Assembly (NCBI GenBank): GCA_027314885.1
Contig: DAHUZY010000002.1
Location: 1 to 44,808, forward strand
DNA from: Candidatus Saccharimonadota bacterium
GTDB taxonomy: Bacteria > Patescibacteriota > Saccharimonadia > Saccharimonadales > UBA4665
Length of the DNA: 44,808 nt
Direction of reading: 5' to 3'
Position 1 is the stretch's first letter; every line of letters begins with the position of its first letter. Below, one piece after another: positions 9,573-40,480 of this stretch. A program made the translations under genes and the position numbers. The notes beneath the pieces were generated by a model. The model was not told the origin of the DNA and made no database searches. It worked only from the letters and a program-made list of their open reading frames with translations.

Positions 9573-10907
9573 CTAGGGGCTTAGGCGGTTGATATCTCGT
9601 GGGAAAAGAATGGCTTCTTTGACGTTATTGAGACCGATTGCTTTTTCGGTCAGGCGGTCAATACCGAAACCAAAACCGCCATGGGCTGGCAGGCCATGTT
9701 TCATGGCTGTGACGTACGGAGCAAAACCCGAGCTGTCCGGGTCAATACCAGTTGCCTTCATTTGTGCGACCAGTTCTTTATAGCGATGCTCCCGTTGCGG
9801 CACAGTGCTAATTTCAATGCCCCTAAATAAAAGGTCCGCCGAGCGGGCAGTTTGGTCTTCACCCTTCATGTGGTAGAACTTCATTTTGCTGGCTGGCAAT
9901 CCGGTAGCAAAGACTGCCTCGCTGCCTTCTCGTTGCATCGCATATTCGCAAATCCATTTCTCTTCTTCGGGCGTCAAGTCAATTTCCTGGCTAACATCCT
10001 TGCCCGTCTCCTTCTCATAAAGAGCGTGTATTTCGGCCATGCTATAACGGGGGAACCTTGGCGTAAGCTTGAGCTGCGGAGCTCTCAGGTTTTTCAGTTC
10101 GTCGCCATGCTCTTCATACAGGCGAGTTAAAACGTCATACAGGAGATCCTGCACGAGGTCGAGCACTTCACTGTGGTTTTTAATAAAGCCCATCTCAACA
10201 TCAAGCATAGTGACTTCAGAAACGTGACGGGTGGTAGCCGACAACTCTGCTCTGAATGCAGGGGCGATTTCAAAGACCCGCTCAAACACACCAACCATGA
10301 TTTGTTTATATAACTGCGGGCTTTGGGCGAGCGTGGCTTCCTTGCCGAAGTAGTCTGTCTTAAAGACTTCAGCACCACCTTCGGCTGCTCCGGCGACGAG
10401 CTTGGGCGTGTTAATCTCAATAAAGTCACGCTTGTATAAGAACTCGCGTATATAGCGAAGCAGCTCGCTGCGCAAACGGAAGATAGTGGCCTCCTGCAAG
10501 TTACGAAGACCGAGCACACGATGATCAAACAAGGTATCGAGATTCTCTGATTTATGACTCAAGGGCTTATCTATCTCGATCGGTGGTTCAGTTGTGACGG
10601 GCACCAAAACTGTTAGTTTGGGGTCATGTAGCTCCGCGCCGCCGGGTGCTCTCGGCTCCTCTATGACGGTGCCCTCAATTGCGAGCACGCTGCCAATTTG
10701 CAGCCCTCTTAATTTTTCAACTTCTGTCTTATCCTGAATAACAACCTGCACGAGGCCGCGGCGATCACGCATACTAATAAATGTCAGGCCGCCGAGCAGG
10801 CGCTTTTTGTGCAGCCAGCCTTCGATATGAATAACCTCACCAATATGCGTCTTCAGCTCATCACTTAAAAGTCGCGTATGGTTGGACGAGCCTGTTGATT
10901 GTTCCAT
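9573..10907 (-). CDS. aspS: Aspartyl-tRNA synthetase, archaeal/eukaryotic type (possibly non-discriminating)
   Basis: HIEGWLHKKRLLGGLTFISMRDRRGLVQVVIQ; class II motifs (FRAE, GFGFGIDRL); compact 444 aa without the bacterial GAD insertion. Confidence 0.9.
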   Translation of the reverse strand: MEQSTGSSNHTRLLSDELKTHIGEVIHIEGWLHKKRLLGGLTFISMRDRRGLVQVVIQDKTEVEKLRGLQIGSVLAIEGTVIEEPRAPGGAELHDPKLTVLVPVTTEPPIEIDKPLSHKSENLDTLFDHRVLGLRNLQEATIFRLRSELLRYIREFLYKRDFIEINTPKLVAGAAEGGAEVFKTDYFGKEATLAQSPQLYKQIMVGVFERVFEIAPAFRAELSATTRHVSEVTMLDVEMGFIKNHSEVLDLVQDLLYDVLTRLYEEHGDELKNLRAPQLKLTPRFPRYSMAEIHALYEKETGKDVSQEIDLTPEEEKWICEYAMQREGSEAVFATGLPASKMKFYHMKGEDQTARSADLLFRGIEISTVPQREHRYKELVAQMKATGIDPDSSGFAPYVTAMKHGLPAHGGFGFGIDRLTEKAIGLNNVKEAILFPRDINRLSP

Positions 10908-10914
10908 AGTGCTG

Positions 10915-11967
10915 CTATTCTAACACTTCGGCATCTGTTTTTACAGATCGCTCCACACTGGGCTCTGGTTGCTCTCGTTGGCTTCGGCGACGAGCCACTA
11001 CCGCACTTGGATCTGTATATTGATCAAAGTTCTCCCCGGGAACATGGCCAAGTAGCTGTTCAATCATAGTTTGGACTGTAATAATACCTATATATTCCTC
11101 GGCGTTGTCGATCACTATGAAAAACGGGCGGTTGGTTAAGTGAAATGCGTACAGTGCTTGTGTTAACGTGTCGTCTTCATGAAGATAGTAAACGGCATTA
11201 TCCATGAGCTCCCGAACGGTTCCTTTGCTATGAAGCCCGAGTTTATCAAAGGCGAGCGTGCCAATGACTGGTCCTTTTTTGCCTTCTCTCACCGGAGTAT
11301 ATGGCTGTCTTTTCTTATGCAGCTCATCAATGAGGATCGGTCCGATCACGTCGCTTGGTTGCAGTGCCTTAACCCTGGAGCTCGGCAGCAAGACATCTTT
11401 AACTCTCACATCTCCAAACTCTAGCGCCCGTCTGGCAATTTCTAGTTCTTCGAGGCTAATGCGACTATCTGATTGAGTTGGCTGGTGAGTAATAAGTTCG
11501 ACGAGATCTTCTTTTTCAAACAGCCCACTGTGCCGGGGAGCTTTAAAGCGTGTCTCAATGGCGTCGGCACCGCGACTGATCGATGGGTGTAAATAATTAA
11601 GCAGCCAGGCGACAATCGGTGTAGCGGCGCCTGTCAGCCATTGGCCGTAACTGCTCGTGCGAGCAGCGGGGATTAATGAAAATGCAATCCAAAGCAGCGG
11701 ACCAATAACCAGAATACCCAGCCAGATAGGCAGAGAACGGGCTAGTAATATAACTGCGATTGCTGAAGTCAGTCCGATGTATAACCAAAGTAAGCCCCGT
11801 AAGCTGTTGCCGTAACTGACTACTCTATAGAGCTGCCTCGCGCTCTGGTCGCCATAACGGGCGCGCCGCTTCAGTTCGCTCGCGGGCAGTGCAAAATATG
11901 TTTTACGCAGCACTATACCAAGTAGTGCCAGAATCAGGCAGACAATCGCAATAATAATATCTGTCAT
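10915..11967 (-). CDS. CBS-domain membrane protein (CNNM/hemolysin-C-like)
   Basis: N-terminal TM helices, EELEIARRALEFGDVRVKDVLLPSSRVKAL then paired CBS motif regions. Confidence 0.75.
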   Translation of the reverse strand: MTDIIIAIVCLILALLGIVLRKTYFALPASELKRRARYGDQSARQLYRVVSYGNSLRGLLWLYIGLTSAIAVILLARSLPIWLGILVIGPLLWIAFSLIPAARTSSYGQWLTGAATPIVAWLLNYLHPSISRGADAIETRFKAPRHSGLFEKEDLVELITHQPTQSDSRISLEELEIARRALEFGDVRVKDVLLPSSRVKALQPSDVIGPILIDELHKKRQPYTPVREGKKGPVIGTLAFDKLGLHSKGTVRELMDNAVYYLHEDDTLTQALYAFHLTNRPFFIVIDNAEEYIGIITVQTMIEQLLGHVPGENFDQYTDPSAVVARRRSQREQPEPSVERSVKTDAEVLE

Positions 11968-31593: not shown

Positions 31594-33048
31594 TCAGGAA
31601 GGCCCGATTGCATGGTGGTAGGTTATGTACCAAAACTTTGCACATGTCAGTATAAGGCCTACAACAACCATACTGACTATTGCGATTTGCGGGTTATAGT
31701 TCTTTGCACTTAATCTAGTCCTTACATTTGCCGTGATCCAGAATGTTAACAGAAGGAGATATGGCAAAAAATACCGGCCTTGGGTGCTATCAACTATGGT
31801 AGCCTTAACAGGAGTTGCAGCAATGTACTCCGTTAGAAAAATTCCTACGACTCCCCCTATTATTATTAATATAATTGCGAGGTTGTTAATAAACTTCAGT
31901 TTAATTTTTTCTGCGATCCCCGCGGATACAAACAACGCTGTTAAATAAAGAACAAATGTGGTTCCTGGGATTTGAAACCCATTGAAACCAAACGACCCGA
32001 ACATTTGATAGATATAACCAGCATCAGCAACCAATAATGTCTTAATTAATGCTTTGACAAAAATTAATGGGTTGTGCTCTAGTACTTTAATTTGTTGGTG
32101 CGGGTGAATATACATCCAGATATTTCCAGGTATAATTAGCCGAACTGCACTTAATGTGTCTTTAGTGAGAAGACTCCATGTTAGAAAGGTACATAGTGCC
32201 GCCAATAAACCTAGTGTTTTGAAAACCCTGGACTTTTTAATGTTAGAGGAAATGGTTTCGTGGGGAATGAAAAGTAACAGTAAGCACAACACCACATATG
32301 TAGGTTTGACTAGCGGTAACACGAGGCTGGTAGCAAGCAGTGTGGCGAGCTCAGCTTTAGAGTATTTAGATTTTAGAAATCCTTTTATCATAAACGCGAG
32401 GAACAATAAAATAACTCCATTTGTTAATGTATCTGCAGTAATAATTGACGCTTGGGCAATCGCAACCGGCATAAGTCCTACGACGAACACTACCCATTTA
32501 GTTTTTGAGTTTCTCAATATTCTAAGTGCTAAATATACTATCCCGATATAAGCAAGCAGTTGAAAAAGGCGTGCTAGATAAATTGTTGAGCTAAGAGAAA
32601 AGTTAGCCACCCTGGCAATCCATATTGCCAATGCGCTGGGCAGGTAAACTACTGGCGAATATGGCGCAGCATTAGGAAAAGCATATTCTACACTCTTGGC
32701 ACTATTAATTGGTAGTTTCCCAATTTTATTGTACTGAGCAATATTTGCTTTGCCTACATATCCCGTAGTAAGTAGGTTGTGGTCCACATATGCTATTAGG
32801 GTGTGTAAGGTGGCTGGAATATTACCCCCATACCCCCCGCCTCTAGGCGCAACATCTGTTAGTTTCTGGCTAAAAACGTGACCCTCAGAAATTTGATAGG
32901 CCCGTGCGATATGGGATGTTTCATCACTACCCCAAAGAAGGGGTGTATTCATAACAAAGAACAGTCCGAAAACCAAAGCGACCGCAACAAAAACTGTCGA
33001 TGCTCTTAGGTGTGGGCGAGCAGCCGATACTATGGTTTCTATATTCAT
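31594..33048 (-). CDS. DUF2142-type polytopic membrane protein (GT-C-like)
   Basis: TPLLWGSDETSHIARAYQISEGHVFSQKL, many TM helices. Confidence 0.75.
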   Translation of the reverse strand: MNIETIVSAARPHLRASTVFVAVALVFGLFFVMNTPLLWGSDETSHIARAYQISEGHVFSQKLTDVAPRGGGYGGNIPATLHTLIAYVDHNLLTTGYVGKANIAQYNKIGKLPINSAKSVEYAFPNAAPYSPVVYLPSALAIWIARVANFSLSSTIYLARLFQLLAYIGIVYLALRILRNSKTKWVVFVVGLMPVAIAQASIITADTLTNGVILLFLAFMIKGFLKSKYSKAELATLLATSLVLPLVKPTYVVLCLLLLFIPHETISSNIKKSRVFKTLGLLAALCTFLTWSLLTKDTLSAVRLIIPGNIWMYIHPHQQIKVLEHNPLIFVKALIKTLLVADAGYIYQMFGSFGFNGFQIPGTTFVLYLTALFVSAGIAEKIKLKFINNLAIILIIIGGVVGIFLTEYIAATPVKATIVDSTQGRYFLPYLLLLTFWITANVRTRLSAKNYNPQIAIVSMVVVGLILTCAKFWYITYHHAIGPS

Positions 33049-33091: not shown

Positions 33092-33120
33092 TTTACATTT
33101 ATAAGCACATTCGCTATAAT
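33092..33120 (+). promoter_or_regulatory. Predicted promoter TTTACA-N17-TATAAT for the 33173/33718 pair
   Basis: TTTACA 33092-33097, 17-bp spacer, TATAAT 33115-33120. Confidence 0.6.
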
Positions 33121-33172: not shown

Positions 33173-33718
33173 ATGAATTATATGAAGATTAAGTTCAATA
33201 TAGTAGTACTCGTAGCGGTTATCCTGGTTGTTGCAGCAGCTATATATTTATTGTTTGATAAACTTGTACTCACACACTCTAGCACTAAATTACCTCCTAA
33301 TGTAGTGACGAGTACTTCTCCTGCAGCTAATTCTTTAAATAATAAACGTAAATCAAGCTCTTCTCCTGCAGTAACTCTGAATACTGGACCGTCCAAGGGC
33401 TCAGCCCTGACAAACGTTACTCTAGCTATTACACGAGCTTCTGTTGTAGGTAATAGTTTGGAGGTAGGAACTATAATCAATGGAGCCTCGAGTGGAACTT
33501 GTACACTTTCCGCATCTCAGAGTGGTCAAGCAACACTTGTCCGTACGGATAAAGTTGTCACCCAAAATAATAGTTATGTGTGCCCAGTTTTTAGTATTCC
33601 GGTAAGCCAATTTCCCGATCGAGGTAATTGGAATGTCTCTGTTAAGTTGATTGTTAACGGCAGTAGCTATAGCGCAAAGTGGGCAAGCAATCCTGTGCAT
33701 TTATCGGGTAGCTACTGA
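33173..33718 (+). CDS. Exported, N-terminally anchored small protein with Ser/Thr-rich linker and Ig-like C-terminal domain
   Basis: N-terminal TM, low-complexity linker, beta-rich C-terminus with two Cys. TGATG overlap with the next CDS. ATG 33182 is an alternative start. Confidence 0.7.
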   Translation: MNYMKIKFNIVVLVAVILVVAAAIYLLFDKLVLTHSSTKLPPNVVTSTSPAANSLNNKRKSSSSPAVTLNTGPSKGSALTNVTLAITRASVVGNSLEVGTIINGASSGTCTLSASQSGQATLVRTDKVVTQNNSYVCPVFSIPVSQFPDRGNWNVSVKLIVNGSSYSAKWASNPVHLSGSY

Positions 33719-36588
33719 TGTTAAAACGTAGAATATACTCAACCGCACTGTTGGCTTTCATTATATTGTTGGCTCCCACCTTAGGACTATTGCCCACTAA
33801 TTTTTTTGGCAAGCATTCCAGCACTATTGGAAAAGCATACGCTGAAACAACTAACTTTCAGGCTGGGCACATCATTGACGATAATATATTTACAAACAGT
33901 AATGCCTTAAGCGAGGGGCAAATCCAAACCTGGCTAAACGATATGGTAAACAGTGTTGGGGGATGTTACGCTCCTGGCGCTAAATCAACCAATCCGCCAA
34001 ACGGGGCATGTATAAATGAATTTTGTGAAAATACCTCTACTCTCCAAAACAACTTTAGTAGCCCCAATCCTTCTTTATCTTGTCCCCAACAGATAGCTGG
34101 CAGCGTAAGTGCAGCACAAATTATTTATAATGCCGCTCAGACATATGGGATTAATCCTGAAGTTATACTAACTACCCTACAAAAGGAGCAAGGATTGGTA
34201 ACCGACAATTGGCCTTGGTATAGTGAGTATCAATACGCCATGGGCTACTCGTGCCCTGACAGTAATGGCTGCAGCACTACTTATGCAGATTTCTATAAGC
34301 AAGTGGACGGCGCTGCTTGGCAGTTTAGGTATTATTTAAACAACCCTGGGGCGTTTGACTATTGGATAGGTAGCAATACTATTGATTATGCGCCTGGGTG
34401 TGCAGGGAGTACTATTGATATACAGAATGCAGCAACTGCCGCCTTGTACATTTACACCCCTTATCAGCCGGACAGTAATGTACTGGCAAATACGAACCCA
34501 ATAGGCTCCTCGTCTGGACCAGGACCCGCTATCAACGATGGTTGCGCGTCCTATGGTAATAGAAATTTTTGGTGGTACTTTAACACTTGGTTTGGGCCGA
34601 GCGTTGATACAAGCGTGTACCTCGCCGAGGAAACAGGGACCTCAACTTACTACGTTGTCTATGATAATCAAAAACAAGCAATCCCAAGCGCTGATGTCTT
34701 AGACTCCTGGGGCTTAAATGGGCTTCCCGTCTCGAGTCTGGATTCGTCTATATTCAACGCGATACCCACAAACCCTACAGTATTGACTCGGTATGTCGTT
34801 AATACTCAGAATAATCAAGCGTATTTTGCAGATAATGGTAACGTTTATTCCGTTTCTTCCAACGATGCCAGTGTTTGGGGTTTTTCTAACCCGTCACAAA
34901 TATCAACTTCGCTTGTTAATTTTGCTAACTATCAAGGAGAAATAAAACCTTACGTTAGCGAAAGTGGCAGTTCAACATATTACGCAGTTGATAATGGCGC
35001 CTTGCATGCAATAACAAGCAGTACTGCCTACGGGCTTTGGGCTGGTCAAAATAATCCACCAATACAAATTTCTTCTGCCTACTTTAACACGATGCCTCAG
35101 TCGTCAGCAGCCATAAGCAGTCCAGAGTTTACCTATAACAGCGCGAGTTATGTATTATCAGATGGTCAAGTTTTCTCTCTTAGCAGTAATACTGCAAGCT
35201 TGTTGCCATCATCGTGGTCAACTTTATCAATAGGCTCTGGACTCTTTAACACATTTTCGAGCGCCGGGGCTTTACAATATATGGTAAAAGCACAAGGGAG
35301 CTCTACTGTATATTTACTCGATTCGGGAACAAAGCGTGGCATACCAGACTTATTTACATATGGAGCGTTCCAGGCTGATCAAAGTGGGGATACTAGTCTG
35401 GTTTCAAATAACTTTATTAATAGTATACCTGGTGGTAGCGCTATGGAGAGTAATGTAGCTACAATAGGGAGTCAGACATATGTAGTTGATCAGGGATTGC
35501 ACCCCGTGCCTTCCTCGCTAACATCTGCATACAGCCCCATGGCTACAAGCTTATCTACAGCATATGGGTCGTTGCTTCCAAGCGCTTCAAACGCGACTGC
35601 TATAGCTAAATCAACTTCTTCATCGGCTGTTTACTTTTTAGACAATGGATCTAAGCTGCCTTTTAGCAATCCCGCAATGCTAGGTTTAGTGGCTGGAAAA
35701 ACTACCGTTACCTATTTGTCACAAGGGGCTTTAAGTATATTACCCCAAGGATCAGTTATGAGTAACTATGTGACAAACAATGGCTCGGATTATTTGATAG
35801 ATCAGGGCTCTGCCTATGGCATACCGGCCCCAGGAACAGCTAATGCATGGGGGTTGCAAAATCCCGTCTCGTTAAGCTCAACGGCTATTTCAAACTTTCC
35901 TAACGGCGGAAGCCTTTCCCAGTACATTCAAAAGCCAAACGGTCAGTTTTGCTTGATAGATGGTGCCAGCTATTGCGCAGGTAATGCCGCACTACTTACA
36001 ATGTGGAGCTTTGGCAATAAAAATGTTATTAAACCCTCTCAGCAGCTGCTAAACTACTTAAATTTTGACAACCTTTCTCTTTCTCCTTTTGTAAGTAGCC
36101 TGGCAGGCCAGACATATTCGGGAACAATTTTTGCCATGGCAAAAGGACAGTTAATTGGCATCTCTACCATATACAATGGCCTTAACTTAGGGCTGGCTAA
36201 TTACCCAGTAGTTAAGCTTGATAGCTATACAATGAGTTCACTTATGAGCAATAAGGTGTGGCAAGGTTACCTGGCTGAAGACGATAACGGCAACATATGG
36301 GTATTGGATGGCGGGATTAAGCACTCCCTCCCTTCTCAATATCAAAGCGCCTGGGTCGGCTCTAATAGCCCGACCCTACTAGGTAGCGACTTTTTGTCTC
36401 TTTTGAGCACAGGTCAACCCATAAGTAATTCCATTAAGTCTGCACCTAGTCCCACTGTGTTTGGCATTAAGAACAGCAAAGAATATGCAATACCATCTCC
36501 ACAAGTCTATGCCTCCTCTGGGCTTAGTCCTTATGTAATTGTTAATCCTAGTCTTATTTACAGTATTCCATATGCTGGCGTATGGTGA
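33718..36588 (+). CDS. Large secreted surface protein: N-terminal lysozyme/hemagglutinin-like domain plus ~12 degenerate ~50-aa repeats
   Basis: Signal peptide; AAQIIYNAAQTYGINPEVILTTLQKEQGLVT...QYAMGYSCPDSNGC...; repeats of the type (S)STxYxVDNGxxxxIPS... Confidence 0.8.
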   Translation: MLKRRIYSTALLAFIILLAPTLGLLPTNFFGKHSSTIGKAYAETTNFQAGHIIDDNIFTNSNALSEGQIQTWLNDMVNSVGGCYAPGAKSTNPPNGACINEFCENTSTLQNNFSSPNPSLSCPQQIAGSVSAAQIIYNAAQTYGINPEVILTTLQKEQGLVTDNWPWYSEYQYAMGYSCPDSNGCSTTYADFYKQVDGAAWQFRYYLNNPGAFDYWIGSNTIDYAPGCAGSTIDIQNAATAALYIYTPYQPDSNVLANTNPIGSSSGPGPAINDGCASYGNRNFWWYFNTWFGPSVDTSVYLAEETGTSTYYVVYDNQKQAIPSADVLDSWGLNGLPVSSLDSSIFNAIPTNPTVLTRYVVNTQNNQAYFADNGNVYSVSSNDASVWGFSNPSQISTSLVNFANYQGEIKPYVSESGSSTYYAVDNGALHAITSSTAYGLWAGQNNPPIQISSAYFNTMPQSSAAISSPEFTYNSASYVLSDGQVFSLSSNTASLLPSSWSTLSIGSGLFNTFSSAGALQYMVKAQGSSTVYLLDSGTKRGIPDLFTYGAFQADQSGDTSLVSNNFINSIPGGSAMESNVATIGSQTYVVDQGLHPVPSSLTSAYSPMATSLSTAYGSLLPSASNATAIAKSTSSSAVYFLDNGSKLPFSNPAMLGLVAGKTTVTYLSQGALSILPQGSVMSNYVTNNGSDYLIDQGSAYGIPAPGTANAWGLQNPVSLSSTAISNFPNGGSLSQYIQKPNGQFCLIDGASYCAGNAALLTMWSFGNKNVIKPSQQLLNYLNFDNLSLSPFVSSLAGQTYSGTIFAMAKGQLIGISTIYNGLNLGLANYPVVKLDSYTMSSLMSNKVWQGYLAEDDNGNIWVLDGGIKHSLPSQYQSAWVGSNSPTLLGSDFLSLLSTGQPISNSIKSAPSPTVFGIKNSKEYAIPSPQVYASSGLSPYVIVNPSLIYSIPYAGVW
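34605..36585 (+). repeat. Protein-level tandem repeats (~12) in the secreted protein
   Basis: Units include TSTYYVVYDNQKQAIPS, SSTYYAVDNGALHAITS, SSTVYLLDSGTKRGIPD, SSAVYFLDNGSKLPFSN, GSDYLIDQGSAYGIPA, GNIWVLDGGIKHSLPS, SPTVFGIKNSKEYAIPS. Confidence 0.8.
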
Positions 36589-36589
36589 T

Positions 36590-37603
36590 CTAGAAGCCTC
36601 TCTGCATTAACTGCCACAAATAGTCAGTATTAACATTTCTGTACTTTTTTAATCTGTGCCGCTTTACCAGAAATATTGGTATATACTTTAAGCTCGCAAG
36701 CCTCCCTTTAATAATAGCTGGCACTCCTTCTGGTTTACCTATCCTTTTAAGGTGCTTAATGGAGGCCCTATCGGCTTTAGGTATGTCCAGTAATATTACT
36801 AACAATATAGATAGTGGGAGGTTTTTTATTAGCATTCCTGTGTTATTTCTAAAGGTCATATAAAGTGAAAACCCGGGGTTTTTACTAGAACTTGCTGACC
36901 CCATGTGGTATGCTCTGGTCCCAGGCACAACGTAATTATCCCACCCCATTACTGTGGATCTTGCCGCAATATCAACATCTTCTAGATACATGAACATAGT
37001 TTCATCAAAAAAGTCTTTGAAAGGCTGAGCTTCTATAAACTTACGCGTTATTAGCATGGCTGCTGCATTACAACCAAATACTTTTTGGGGAGCTGTGTCT
37101 TTTTCTTTTGCAATGGGTGTTCTCCACGATCCTTGAGTTCCTTGTCCATACCTGGATATATAAACGTGGGTTGAGTCCATTATGCCTTGATCATAATAGT
37201 CTAGGGTTACGCTTTGCATAGTGGCTGTCATTGGCCGCAACCTGGCTGCCGCAATCACTGTTGATGTCCAGTTGGTTGCTAATCTTGCATCTGTATTAAG
37301 TAGCACAATATATTCTACGTCAATATCTTCAAGCGCTGCAGCTATGCCAATATTATTTCCTTTGGCAAAGCCGTAATTTTTAGTTTGTGGTAAAACCTCA
37401 ACTTCTGGGAAGTTCGTTGCCACATGTTCCTTTATGTTATCGCTTGAGGCGTTATCAACCAGAATAATTCTTTGCTTTTTTTGATAATCTTGGTTTTTAA
37501 TAGACTGAATACACTCATCGATTATGTCTTTATTATTCCAAGCTACAACCACATATGCAACACCTCGTTCTTTCTTGGCTGTGTGAGTAATTTTCTTTGT
37601 CAT
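36590..37603 (-). CDS. Glycosyltransferase family 2 (rhamnosyltransferase-like)
   Basis: AYVVVAWNNKDIIDECIQSIKNQDY, LVDNASSDNIKE, NYGFAKGNNIGI, FMYLEDVDIAARS. Confidence 0.9.
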   Translation of the reverse strand: MTKKITHTAKKERGVAYVVVAWNNKDIIDECIQSIKNQDYQKKQRIILVDNASSDNIKEHVATNFPEVEVLPQTKNYGFAKGNNIGIAAALEDIDVEYIVLLNTDARLATNWTSTVIAAARLRPMTATMQSVTLDYYDQGIMDSTHVYISRYGQGTQGSWRTPIAKEKDTAPQKVFGCNAAAMLITRKFIEAQPFKDFFDETMFMYLEDVDIAARSTVMGWDNYVVPGTRAYHMGSASSSKNPGFSLYMTFRNNTGMLIKNLPLSILLVILLDIPKADRASIKHLKRIGKPEGVPAIIKGRLASLKYIPIFLVKRHRLKKYRNVNTDYLWQLMQRGF

Positions 37604-39345
37604 TGGTCTTGATCCTGCTCCTGTTCCTGTTCCTGTTCCTGTTCCTGTTCTGTGATTTTTTGTAGAATGTTAATTGCTGCGGGTTCTGGTGTATACGGTT
37701 CAATGTTTTTGCCAACGGCAATGAGATTGGGAGAAAAAAATGATACTGCCGTGGGTTTTATTGGCTTCAAGCGTATTGAATAATTATCAAGGACTACCTC
37801 AGGAAAAACGACATTATATTTTTCTCTTGAATTATTATGTAGGGTAAAGTCGGTAATTGTAGCCTGTTCAGGATTATGTATTGATCGGAAATAGTGTCTT
37901 AAATCTTTTGTGTGAACTGCTGTAATGCCGCCTGTTAACGCATCGGCATTTCTGACCCAGTTGGTATTCCCAAAAAATGTCTGGTTGTTAAATGCATCCT
38001 GGTCTTTAAATAAGGCTAGTCGGTCACCCGTTGCTGTGACAACAAGTCCACAATCCTCTATGACTGAGTTATTTCTTATTACTAATGGAGCGACGGCCCC
38101 GACATGGTTTAGCGCAAGGGGGCCGCACAACTGCTGCATCCATTTTTTGTTTCGGGGCAATACAATCTGGTTTATTACTATAGCATTTGGGTATTGCGCA
38201 TTAGTTAGCGCGCTCGCTAGATAGCTACTTTTTGCCTCTACGGTTTTTATGCTTACATTCTTGTTTTTTACTCGTGGCTTCACATTGTTTGGGACAATTA
38301 TCTCAAGATCTATATTTTGTGTATTGCTGCGCATAGTAAGCAGTTCTATAAACAATCGCAATAACGCATCTGAAGCGAAAGGCATAATAATAATACTGAT
38401 TTTGGGGGGTCGACTAAAGTTTAGTTCATAAAAGCCAGGTTGTTGCTCCTTAGGAACAACATTAACTGTGACACCCTGACGTTTAAAGTGTTCTTCGAGC
38501 GATTGCGTGCCGGCTTTTGTTATATTCTTTTTTGAAGAAAAGTCTTGCGCAGTAGAGTTTTTCGTTGCTCTCCAGTGATAGAGTACTTTTGCCACATGGG
38601 AAATTCTAGGCTTCATATCAGTTACGCGTAGCACAAGGTCATAGTCTTGTGCCCCATCTTTGGTCGGATCAAGCATGCCAGCCTTTAGAACGAGGTCTTT
38701 TTTGATTACTGTGAGGTGGTTCACATAATTAACATGTGTTAGTAAATCGGGAGACCAATCAGGTTTAAAATGTGGGTCAAAATATACTCCACCATTATCT
38801 GAAATTTTGTCCTCGTCTGTGTATATAAGTTCGGCTTTTTCCTCGTTAATCTTTAAGACACACTCGTATAGGGCAAAGGGGTCAAGGACATCATCATGAT
38901 CAACAAACGCAATATATGTGCCCTTAGCCGCCAGAATACCGACATTTGTATTCTCTGATATACCTCTATTCTCTGCTTCTATGACTCTTATGCGTTCATC
39001 TCTTTGGACACAAGCATTAATTGTGCGCCTATTTTTTGAACTGGTAGACACATTAACAAGTATGAGTTCCCAGTTTTTGTATGCTTGTGAAATTACTGAA
39101 TAGACGAGGGGGTTAAGGTATTGGTTCGGGGTATTATATGCAGGCACTACAATGGAGATTTTTGGACCGTCAGATGTTCCTGATGATTGCTGGCATAGCG
39201 GTAGGTTTTCTAATTGTTGTTGCATCCATGTGTTGTAGTATCCTGCAACCACACTTGATCGTAAGTGTAGTTTAATAAGTGTTATTTTAACTAACTTGCG
39301 GCGAGAACTACCTGGTGGCAGGAATAGGTTTACTACGTATTTCAT
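37600..39345 (-). CDS. Glycosyltransferase family 2, two-domain, with (EQ)n C-terminal tail
   Basis: ISIVVPAYNTPNQYLNPLVYSVISQAYKNWELILVN, AFVDHDDVLDPFALYE; C-term EQEQEQEQEQEQDQDQ. Confidence 0.88.
   Translation of the reverse strand: MKYVVNLFLPPGSSRRKLVKITLIKLHLRSSVVAGYYNTWMQQQLENLPLCQQSSGTSDGPKISIVVPAYNTPNQYLNPLVYSVISQAYKNWELILVNVSTSSKNRRTINACVQRDERIRVIEAENRGISENTNVGILAAKGTYIAFVDHDDVLDPFALYECVLKINEEKAELIYTDEDKISDNGGVYFDPHFKPDWSPDLLTHVNYVNHLTVIKKDLVLKAGMLDPTKDGAQDYDLVLRVTDMKPRISHVAKVLYHWRATKNSTAQDFSSKKNITKAGTQSLEEHFKRQGVTVNVVPKEQQPGFYELNFSRPPKISIIIMPFASDALLRLFIELLTMRSNTQNIDLEIIVPNNVKPRVKNKNVSIKTVEAKSSYLASALTNAQYPNAIVINQIVLPRNKKWMQQLCGPLALNHVGAVAPLVIRNNSVIEDCGLVVTATGDRLALFKDQDAFNNQTFFGNTNWVRNADALTGGITAVHTKDLRHYFRSIHNPEQATITDFTLHNNSREKYNVVFPEVVLDNYSIRLKPIKPTAVSFFSPNLIAVGKNIEPYTPEPAAINILQKITEQEQEQEQEQEQDQDQ
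37614..37649. repeat. Hexanucleotide microsatellite, five perfect CCTGTT (minus AACAGG) units plus one variant
   Basis: cctgct(cctgtt)x5 read directly. Confidence 0.95.
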
Positions 39346-39403
39346 TTTTGCTCCCCGCCCTTATTGCTTGATCCCGCCAGAGTAGGCTTTCTGTATATCA
39401 TTA

Positions 39404-40480
39404 TCAGATTACTCCCCTGCCAATGAGTCGAGCAATGGCATTTCTCATTTTCCAGGCTCTAGATGATTTTATAGCTTTGATAACTTGCTCGCTTTGCTGG
39501 AGCAATTGCTCTTTTGATTCTATAGTTTGCTCTAGCCTATGCGCCTCTTCTTCTTTAACGCGTAACGAGGCCTCTGTTTTCTTAAGAAAGTCATACTGAA
39601 AAATAATAAACTTTTCAGAGATTTCCGGCAACTCCATTAGGGGTCTCGTGAGCAGCTCTTTCTTGCCCGTGAACCTCTTCTCAACTTCTATGAGAGCGTT
39701 GAACATATCATAAATATGTTCGTAAATAATTTTTTGGTATTTGGGGTTTTTCCCATAAAGTTTTAGAAACTCTGCATACAGTAGTAGATGCTGCTGGCCA
39801 TATTTCTCCCATATTTTATCAATGTCCTCGTAGCTATTCCACCACATACCTCCTGGATGACGCCTATAGACCGACATCACTCGATTAATAAAACCTATCT
39901 TTCCAAATTGCGCATGATAAAGATGAAAATACCAATCTATTGGGGAAACGTAGTTAGGAATACCACTGTAGTCGTTCTGTCTTCTATACATTACGGAGCT
40001 AGTTTGCATAAAGTTTTGCTTTAGTAATTTTTCAAAGCTAAATTTTGGGGACTCGCTGGTATTTGGATACAGCGAATCTTCTTCTTCCTTGTTCTCAAAC
40101 ACAACTTTAGTAGGCCCGAATACGATAGTGTGGTCTTTGTGGGAATCTAAAAAACTTGCTTGTCGTTGTATTTTTTTTAGGTCAATCCAAAAGTCATCCC
40201 CTTCACCTACGGCAATATAGTCACCACAAGCTCTTTGGAATACATCTATGAAGTTTCTTTCTGGTCCAATGTTTTTCTTTCTTAGTACAGCTTTTATTTT
40301 CTTATTTTTACCTGCATACTCTTTTATTATTTTCTGTGTACCATCTTGGGAGCAATCGTCTGCAATAATAATTTCATAATCAAAATCAGTTTTTTGGTTA
40401 ACAAAGCCCTCAAGGGCCTCTCTTATATACTTTTCCTGATTATAAGAGATCGAGACAATGCTGACTTTTGGTTTATTCAT
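39404..40480 (-). CDS. Glycosyltransferase family 2 with C-terminal coiled coil
   Basis: VSIVSISYNQEKYIREALEGFVNQKTDFDYEIIIADDCSQDGTQKII, VGEGDDFW. Confidence 0.92.
   Translation of the reverse strand: MNKPKVSIVSISYNQEKYIREALEGFVNQKTDFDYEIIIADDCSQDGTQKIIKEYAGKNKKIKAVLRKKNIGPERNFIDVFQRACGDYIAVGEGDDFWIDLKKIQRQASFLDSHKDHTIVFGPTKVVFENKEEEDSLYPNTSESPKFSFEKLLKQNFMQTSSVMYRRQNDYSGIPNYVSPIDWYFHLYHAQFGKIGFINRVMSVYRRHPGGMWWNSYEDIDKIWEKYGQQHLLLYAEFLKLYGKNPKYQKIIYEHIYDMFNALIEVEKRFTGKKELLTRPLMELPEISEKFIIFQYDFLKKTEASLRVKEEEAHRLEQTIESKEQLLQQSEQVIKAIKSSRAWKMRNAIARLIGRGVI

Follow-up and report, generated by a model that had tools for sequence, protein, structure and literature searches.

Among the closest described systems to the gene pair analyzed here are two adjacent essential genes of Southlakia epibionticum, SEML1_0890 and SEML1_0891, which were identified by transposon-insertion sequencing (Tn-seq) and encode an FnIII protein and a VCBS lectin-like protein (Wang et al. 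2023, PMC10633639). Both products are envelope-associated and are proposed to bind or degrade host glycans; the passages drawn on here mention no lysozyme-like domain and assign no family. Other points of comparison are the glycoside hydrolase families GH23 (MltE, MltC) and GH73 (LytB, AtlE, FlgJ), modular phage endolysins, and the EccB proteins of the mycobacterial ESX, or type VII secretion, system (T7SS). A wall-binding hypothesis has been published for the R-repeats of EccB, and a structural similarity has been reported between the R1 repeat of EccB1 and PlyCB, a phage protein that binds the cell wall (PMC4769845). Here we describe a two-gene module, at positions 33173-36588 of a 44,808-nt stretch of DNA from a Candidatus Saccharimonadota bacterium (contig DAHUZY010000002.1, assembly GCA_027314885.1; the whole stretch is termed the window), that can be compared to each of these. 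By gene order and description, the only basis on which they were compared, SEML1_0890/0891 fit a version of this module with an FG-GAP/VCBS C-terminus. We conclude, with a probability of roughly 0.6, that the window's pair is a conserved Saccharibacterial surface module, made up of a wall-targeting enzyme-adhesin and an anchoring or regulating partner, which was later transferred to actinobacteria. The features of the module are as follows.

33173-33718, plus strand: small gene (P0002), 181 amino acids (aa), encoding a membrane anchor, a linker and an Ig-like ectodomain.
33194-33262, plus strand: membrane-spanning helix that anchors the small protein, aa 8-30, from hydropathy and predicted structure.
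33413-33706, plus strand: Ig-like ectodomain of the small protein, aa 81-178, with Cys110/Cys137 and G151-x-W153 conserved.
33718-36588, plus strand: large gene (P0001), 956 aa, encoding a secreted N-terminal domain (N-domain) and then 12 repeats.
33718-33843, plus strand: signal peptide of the large protein, aa 1-42, with a hydrophobic N-terminus and AYA at 40-42.
33844-34608, plus strand: N-domain, aa 43-297 (~255 aa), a probable lysozyme-superfamily peptidoglycan glycosidase.
34186-34188, plus strand: codon for E157, which aligns with the catalytic Glu of the SLT (GH23) and GH73 profiles.
34615-36585, plus strand: twelve tandem EccB-type (R-repeat) units, aa 300-956.
35644-35922, plus strand: segment of the array (aa 643-735) whose score for PF05108 (T7SS EccB) exceeds the Pfam gathering threshold.

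Both open reading frames named in a preliminary description of this DNA are present, and they overlap as it said, at TGATG, with the TGA of the small gene (33716-33718) sharing a base with the ATG of the large gene (33718-33720). The signal peptide that it assigned to the large protein is also evident, and Ala42, at the end of the AYA motif, is conserved in 40/41 homologs.

Sequence-based searches with the N-domain gave no match in Pfam, NCBIfam, PHROGs or PDB. Its AlphaFold2 model (67 sequences; predicted local distance difference test [pLDDT] 84.6, predicted template modeling score [pTM] 0.86) matches mainly LytB, MltC, MltE, AtlE, goose lysozyme, FlgJ and SagB in the PDB and, among viral models, those of SLT, lytic transglycosylase, GH73 and tail lysins. 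Aligned with HHalign, the N-domain profile gave 74.7% for SLT and 38.6% for GH73, and E157 fell on the catalytic Glu in both cases. Forty column shuffles each gave 2.2% or less, and reversed profiles 0.3% or less; the yardstick, SLT versus GH73, was 90.8%. E157 is invariant in 199/199 homologs, drawn from Saccharibacteria, other members of the Candidate Phyla Radiation (CPR), actinobacteria and one phage, and K156 is kept in 197 of them. As in GH23 and GH73, the Glu is predicted to sit at the end of a core helix, with conserved motifs downstream. In contrast to those families, the domain has the signature KE ... AxG ... Q ... YTP, an extra N-terminal IIDD...IQxFL segment and conserved cysteines, and is missed by Pfam, NCBIfam and PDB sequence searches. 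The evidence for the fold is an agreement among many weak matches together with a controlled profile alignment. The N-domain is most likely a divergent, GH23/GH73-like peptidoglycan glycosidase of the lysozyme superfamily. We class it as working like these enzymes and not as a member of either family; its catalytic activity is predicted from sequence. One of 41 Saccharibacterial homologs (alignment A6) also matches PF16743, the lysozyme inhibitor PliI (E 4.6e-6), an odd thing to find in a large protein of this family, beside a lysozyme-like domain.

In one phage contig (L073, open reading frame 9881-11230), the core of the N-domain is fused to Peptidase_M15_4 (E 1.7e-17), near a terminase-like gene. 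This protein is probably an endolysin, judging from its sequence, and if so it is one of new architecture. Modular endolysins likewise join a catalytic-type domain to a wall-binding-type part, but the window gene differs from them in being chromosomal, in its export by a signal peptide and in having a membrane-anchored Ig-like partner. Searches of plasmid and phage collections by tblastn gave no match, and no viral contig matched the full protein; searched with the alignment of the domain, viral contigs gave the one phage locus. Among other CPR homologs, a Peptidase_S11 match was seen in 3/32 and a PG_binding_1 match in 1/32.

The preliminary description put the number of repeats at about 12, and the count is exactly that, with units of 49-60 aa. 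In leave-one-out hidden Markov model (HMM) tests, 10 of the 12 repeats outscored all 300 shuffles of themselves. A repeat profile made from the window protein alone had a sole PDB match, EccB1 (E 0.02-0.035), while a profile of 70 homolog repeats matched EccB1 (2.9e-5; PDB 3X3M, 4KK7), EccB3 (4e-4) and, weakly, EccB5 (0.11). By sequence, these units are homologs of the R-repeats of mycobacterial EccB, which face the wall. A PF05108 search found one match in the window's own genome, the window protein, and none other in relatives, because the Pfam model is too narrow. With our own repeat HMM, repeats were detected in 36 of the homologs from Saccharibacteria and actinobacteria and in 20/33 proteins from other CPR, although this HMM was iterated on the same protein set, and counts are generous for the weakest members. 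EccB-type repeats following the N-domain are probably the ancestral form of the protein.

The small protein had been described as anchored and Ig-like, and its predicted structure agrees. It has one hydrophobic helix in total (aa 8-30), then a linker, and then a beta-sandwich (aa 81-178, pLDDT ~93) that Foldseek matches to Ig and FnIII domains, with probability up to 1.0; as modeled, it is a single anchor plus an Ig/FnIII sandwich. Most actinobacterial homologs have a lipoprotein signal (lipobox Cys) in place of the helix. This change of anchor type, with the ectodomain kept, suggests that the protein acts at the membrane surface. The N-domain gene is immediately preceded by a homolog of the small gene in 39/41 Saccharibacterial loci examined and in 48/80 actinobacterial loci; no partner was detected in the other 32/80 actinobacterial loci or in most non-Saccharibacterial CPR loci. 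At one actinobacterial locus (L135, 6036-6563), the partner homolog is found >3 kb upstream of the N-domain gene, whereas at most loci the two are adjacent.

Of 119 genomes from the organism's own order, 97 have the N-domain, which is also present in 148/381 genomes of the phylum Patescibacteria and in 10/297 Actinomycetota genomes; these percentages vary with genome draws and thresholds. The last figure was measured separately because the 80 actinobacterial loci had been fetched with a probe of actinobacterial type, which served for retrieval alone, and are biased to that type. N-domains from these loci are ~35-46% identical to that of the window, in keeping with the resemblance to secreted actinobacterial proteins noted earlier. 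The two-gene operon is conserved across the order, while the C-terminus of the large protein is exchanged between relatives, species to species: in place of EccB-type repeats, homologs carry LGFP, CWB2, FG-GAP, CBM, ricin-type, B-lectin, FW (N_BRCA1_IG) or DUF5648 parts. Neighbors of the Saccharibacterial loci are mostly genes for glycosyltransferases and nucleotide-sugar enzymes, including rhamnose genes. In one genome (G795), the gene pair stands at the end of a circular contig; identification of this genome as S. epibionticum is not supported by the positions of its type IV pilus ATPases. In another Patescibacteria genome, of ~0.8 Mb (G212, contig C1, 736283-736945), an N-domain match lies inside a 24,404-aa open frame, possibly a giant surface protein.

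In Microbacteriaceae and other actinobacteria, too, both genes are found next to each other. Trees of 124 and 71 rows place the main actinobacterial sequences in one clade inside Saccharibacteria. In the two-gene tree, this clade has support of 100/99, its sister is a Saccharibacterium (L048; 100/96), and the enclosing Saccharibacterial group has support of 100/99. Monophyly of Saccharibacteria is rejected on the two-gene alignment (approximately unbiased [AU] test, P = 0.025). In an independent test of the actinobacterial partner proteins, 37/39 have their best matches in the same Saccharibacterial subgroup (L045, L048, L047, L160 and L046). The actinobacterial operon has a GC content of 0.683, compared to 0.689 in its flanks, i.e. 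the native value, which indicates long residence. Some further actinobacterial sequences are placed elsewhere in the 124-row tree, and hence there was more than one event. Because actinobacterial sequences are nested inside Saccharibacteria, the operon most likely moved from the epibiont to the lineage of its hosts (Microbacteriaceae and related actinobacteria), a direction that depends on rooting with other CPR. The opposite direction, i.e. acquisition from an actinobacterial host as the preliminary description suggested, was rejected as the likelier one, given that the N-domain family is common in Patescibacteria and patchy in Actinomycetota and that the trees are nested as described.

We propose that the large protein is exported via its own signal peptide and that its N-domain would cut peptidoglycan with E157 as general acid. 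The exchangeable C-terminal array, here 12 EccB-type repeats, would hold the enzyme at wall glycans or peptides, and the swapped C-terminus would set binding specificity. The small protein would most likely tether, chaperone or restrain the enzyme at the epibiont surface, a role that we infer. Acting jointly where epibiont and host meet, the two proteins may attach to wall polymer and cut or remodel it locally. Later, Microbacteriaceae and related actinobacteria would have received the operon, with Saccharibacteria as the most likely donor.

Several points weigh against this interpretation. The N-domain reaches no curated glycoside hydrolase model, with one homolog matching PF01832 at E 0.063, and its Foldseek matches are weak singly (best E 0.09, TM 0.2-0.3). 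An inactive wall-binding domain would likewise retain many conserved residues. A same-genus genome that is 99% complete (G001) has no N-domain match; the module is therefore not universally needed, and loss or replacement of the domain within a genus is suggested. A phylogeny of the N-domain versus Actinobacteria, which the preliminary description had called for, yields the nesting described above, but with the N-domain alone Saccharibacterial monophyly is not rejected (AU P = 0.149). The correspondence of SEML1_0890/0891 to the window's pair is putative. Finally, we infer that the host wall, not that of the producer, is the target because of the epibiont lifestyle.

In a rather unlikely alternative, the pair remodels the producer's own wall in the manner of an autolysin (during growth, division or passage of pili or secretion machines), with the partner as anchor and any host role indirect. 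The retention of both genes at native GC by actinobacteria indicates that the module works in non-epibionts, the loci sit among the producer's surface-polysaccharide genes, and a search of the window's own genome for PF01832 and PF01464 found no match, leaving it without an enzyme of either family. However, C-termini are swapped between relatives, which would be unusual in a housekeeping autolysin, and the N-domain goes undetected in about one-fifth of order members, including the 99%-complete genome above. Less probable still is a large protein that serves purely as an adhesin, its lysozyme-like N-domain binding the wall without catalysis. The C-termini are indeed of binding type, Foldseek and HHalign similarity is no proof of activity, and binding or degradation of host glycans has been proposed for the essential proteins of S. 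epibionticum (PMC10633639). Against this stand the conservation of E157 and K156, the alignment of E157 with the catalytic Glu, and the phage fusion to a wall peptidase, which suggests a lytic enzyme.

For the small protein, an unlikely reading, compatible with the one we favor for the large protein, is that of a cognate inhibitor or immunity protein that shields the producer's wall and is not an anchor. Strict adjacency in 39/41 loci with the small gene upstream, membrane or lipoprotein anchoring in both lineages, and joint transfer with the enzyme gene are all consistent with this; among the matches listed, though, no known lysozyme inhibitor appears by sequence or fold, and the partner is undetected at the many actinobacterial and CPR loci noted above. 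That the repeats make the large protein an EccB, part of a T7SS, is very improbable, despite the PF05108 score and the EccB matches in PDB. The likeness is confined to the repeats, and the protein scores 24.8 versus a cut-off of 154 for full-length EccB (TIGR03919); membership in EccB/T7SS was rejected on these grounds. Family proteins have up to 12-13 tandem repeats and lack the EccB core domain and transmembrane arrangement, the repeats stand behind a signal peptide and an enzyme-like domain in a secreted protein, and the same repeats occur in many CPR homologs of the N-domain family. These comparisons leave the conserved surface module as our preferred explanation. The earlier interpretation is partly supported: a surface module with a lysozyme-like domain stands, with peptidoglycan targeting as the best functional guess, while the EccB-type repeats and the order-wide conservation of the operon had been missed.

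The surroundings of the module comprise the following features.

33092-33120, plus strand: TTTACA-17-TATAAT, a promoter-like site ahead of the operon, 11/12 consensus.
31594-33048, minus strand: DUF2142 membrane protein, a neighbor that recurs beside homologous loci.
36590-40480, minus strand: three GT2 glycosyltransferase genes, a surface-polysaccharide context.

The site at 33092-33120 is a plausible promoter for the operon, as the preliminary description held in calling the promoter good, but it is not proven: the sequence matches 11 of 12 consensus positions, yet such sites number 8 in the region versus 8.6 in shuffles, i.e. the chance level. The GT2 protein at 37600-39345 (minus strand) ends in a low-complexity EQEQEQEQEQEQDQDQ tail. 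GC content drops from ~0.50 (1-28 kb) to ~0.40 (28-44 kb) along the window, and the module sits in the low-GC part, the surface-polysaccharide region, which may be an island that is mobile or evolves fast. The genome (0.93 Mb, 69 contigs, 91.5% complete) has a single copy of the module. Its 16S gene is matched exactly by three Saccharibacteria (TM7)-specific primers; on this basis the organism is a Saccharibacterium, in line with the CPR epibiont lineage proposed earlier, and is probably an epibiont of other bacteria.

How Saccharibacteria recognize and breach their actinobacterial hosts is an open question, and published genetics labels essential envelope proteins by weak domain matches alone. 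The module offers a testable family, in which the domain and its partner are conserved, one residue is a candidate for catalysis, and the C-terminus varies like a host-specificity part. Transfer of an operon from epibiont to host lineage, which is likely here, would be unusual, and the shared EccB-type repeats form a link between surface proteins of CPR bacteria and a still unexplained portion of mycobacterial ESX systems. A more tentative possibility is that a CPR-wide wall-cutting family with exchangeable ends is a core device for host attack and recognition, essential for epibiosis, and that actinobacteria of the parasitized type captured the module, perhaps as a defense or as a weapon against competitors.
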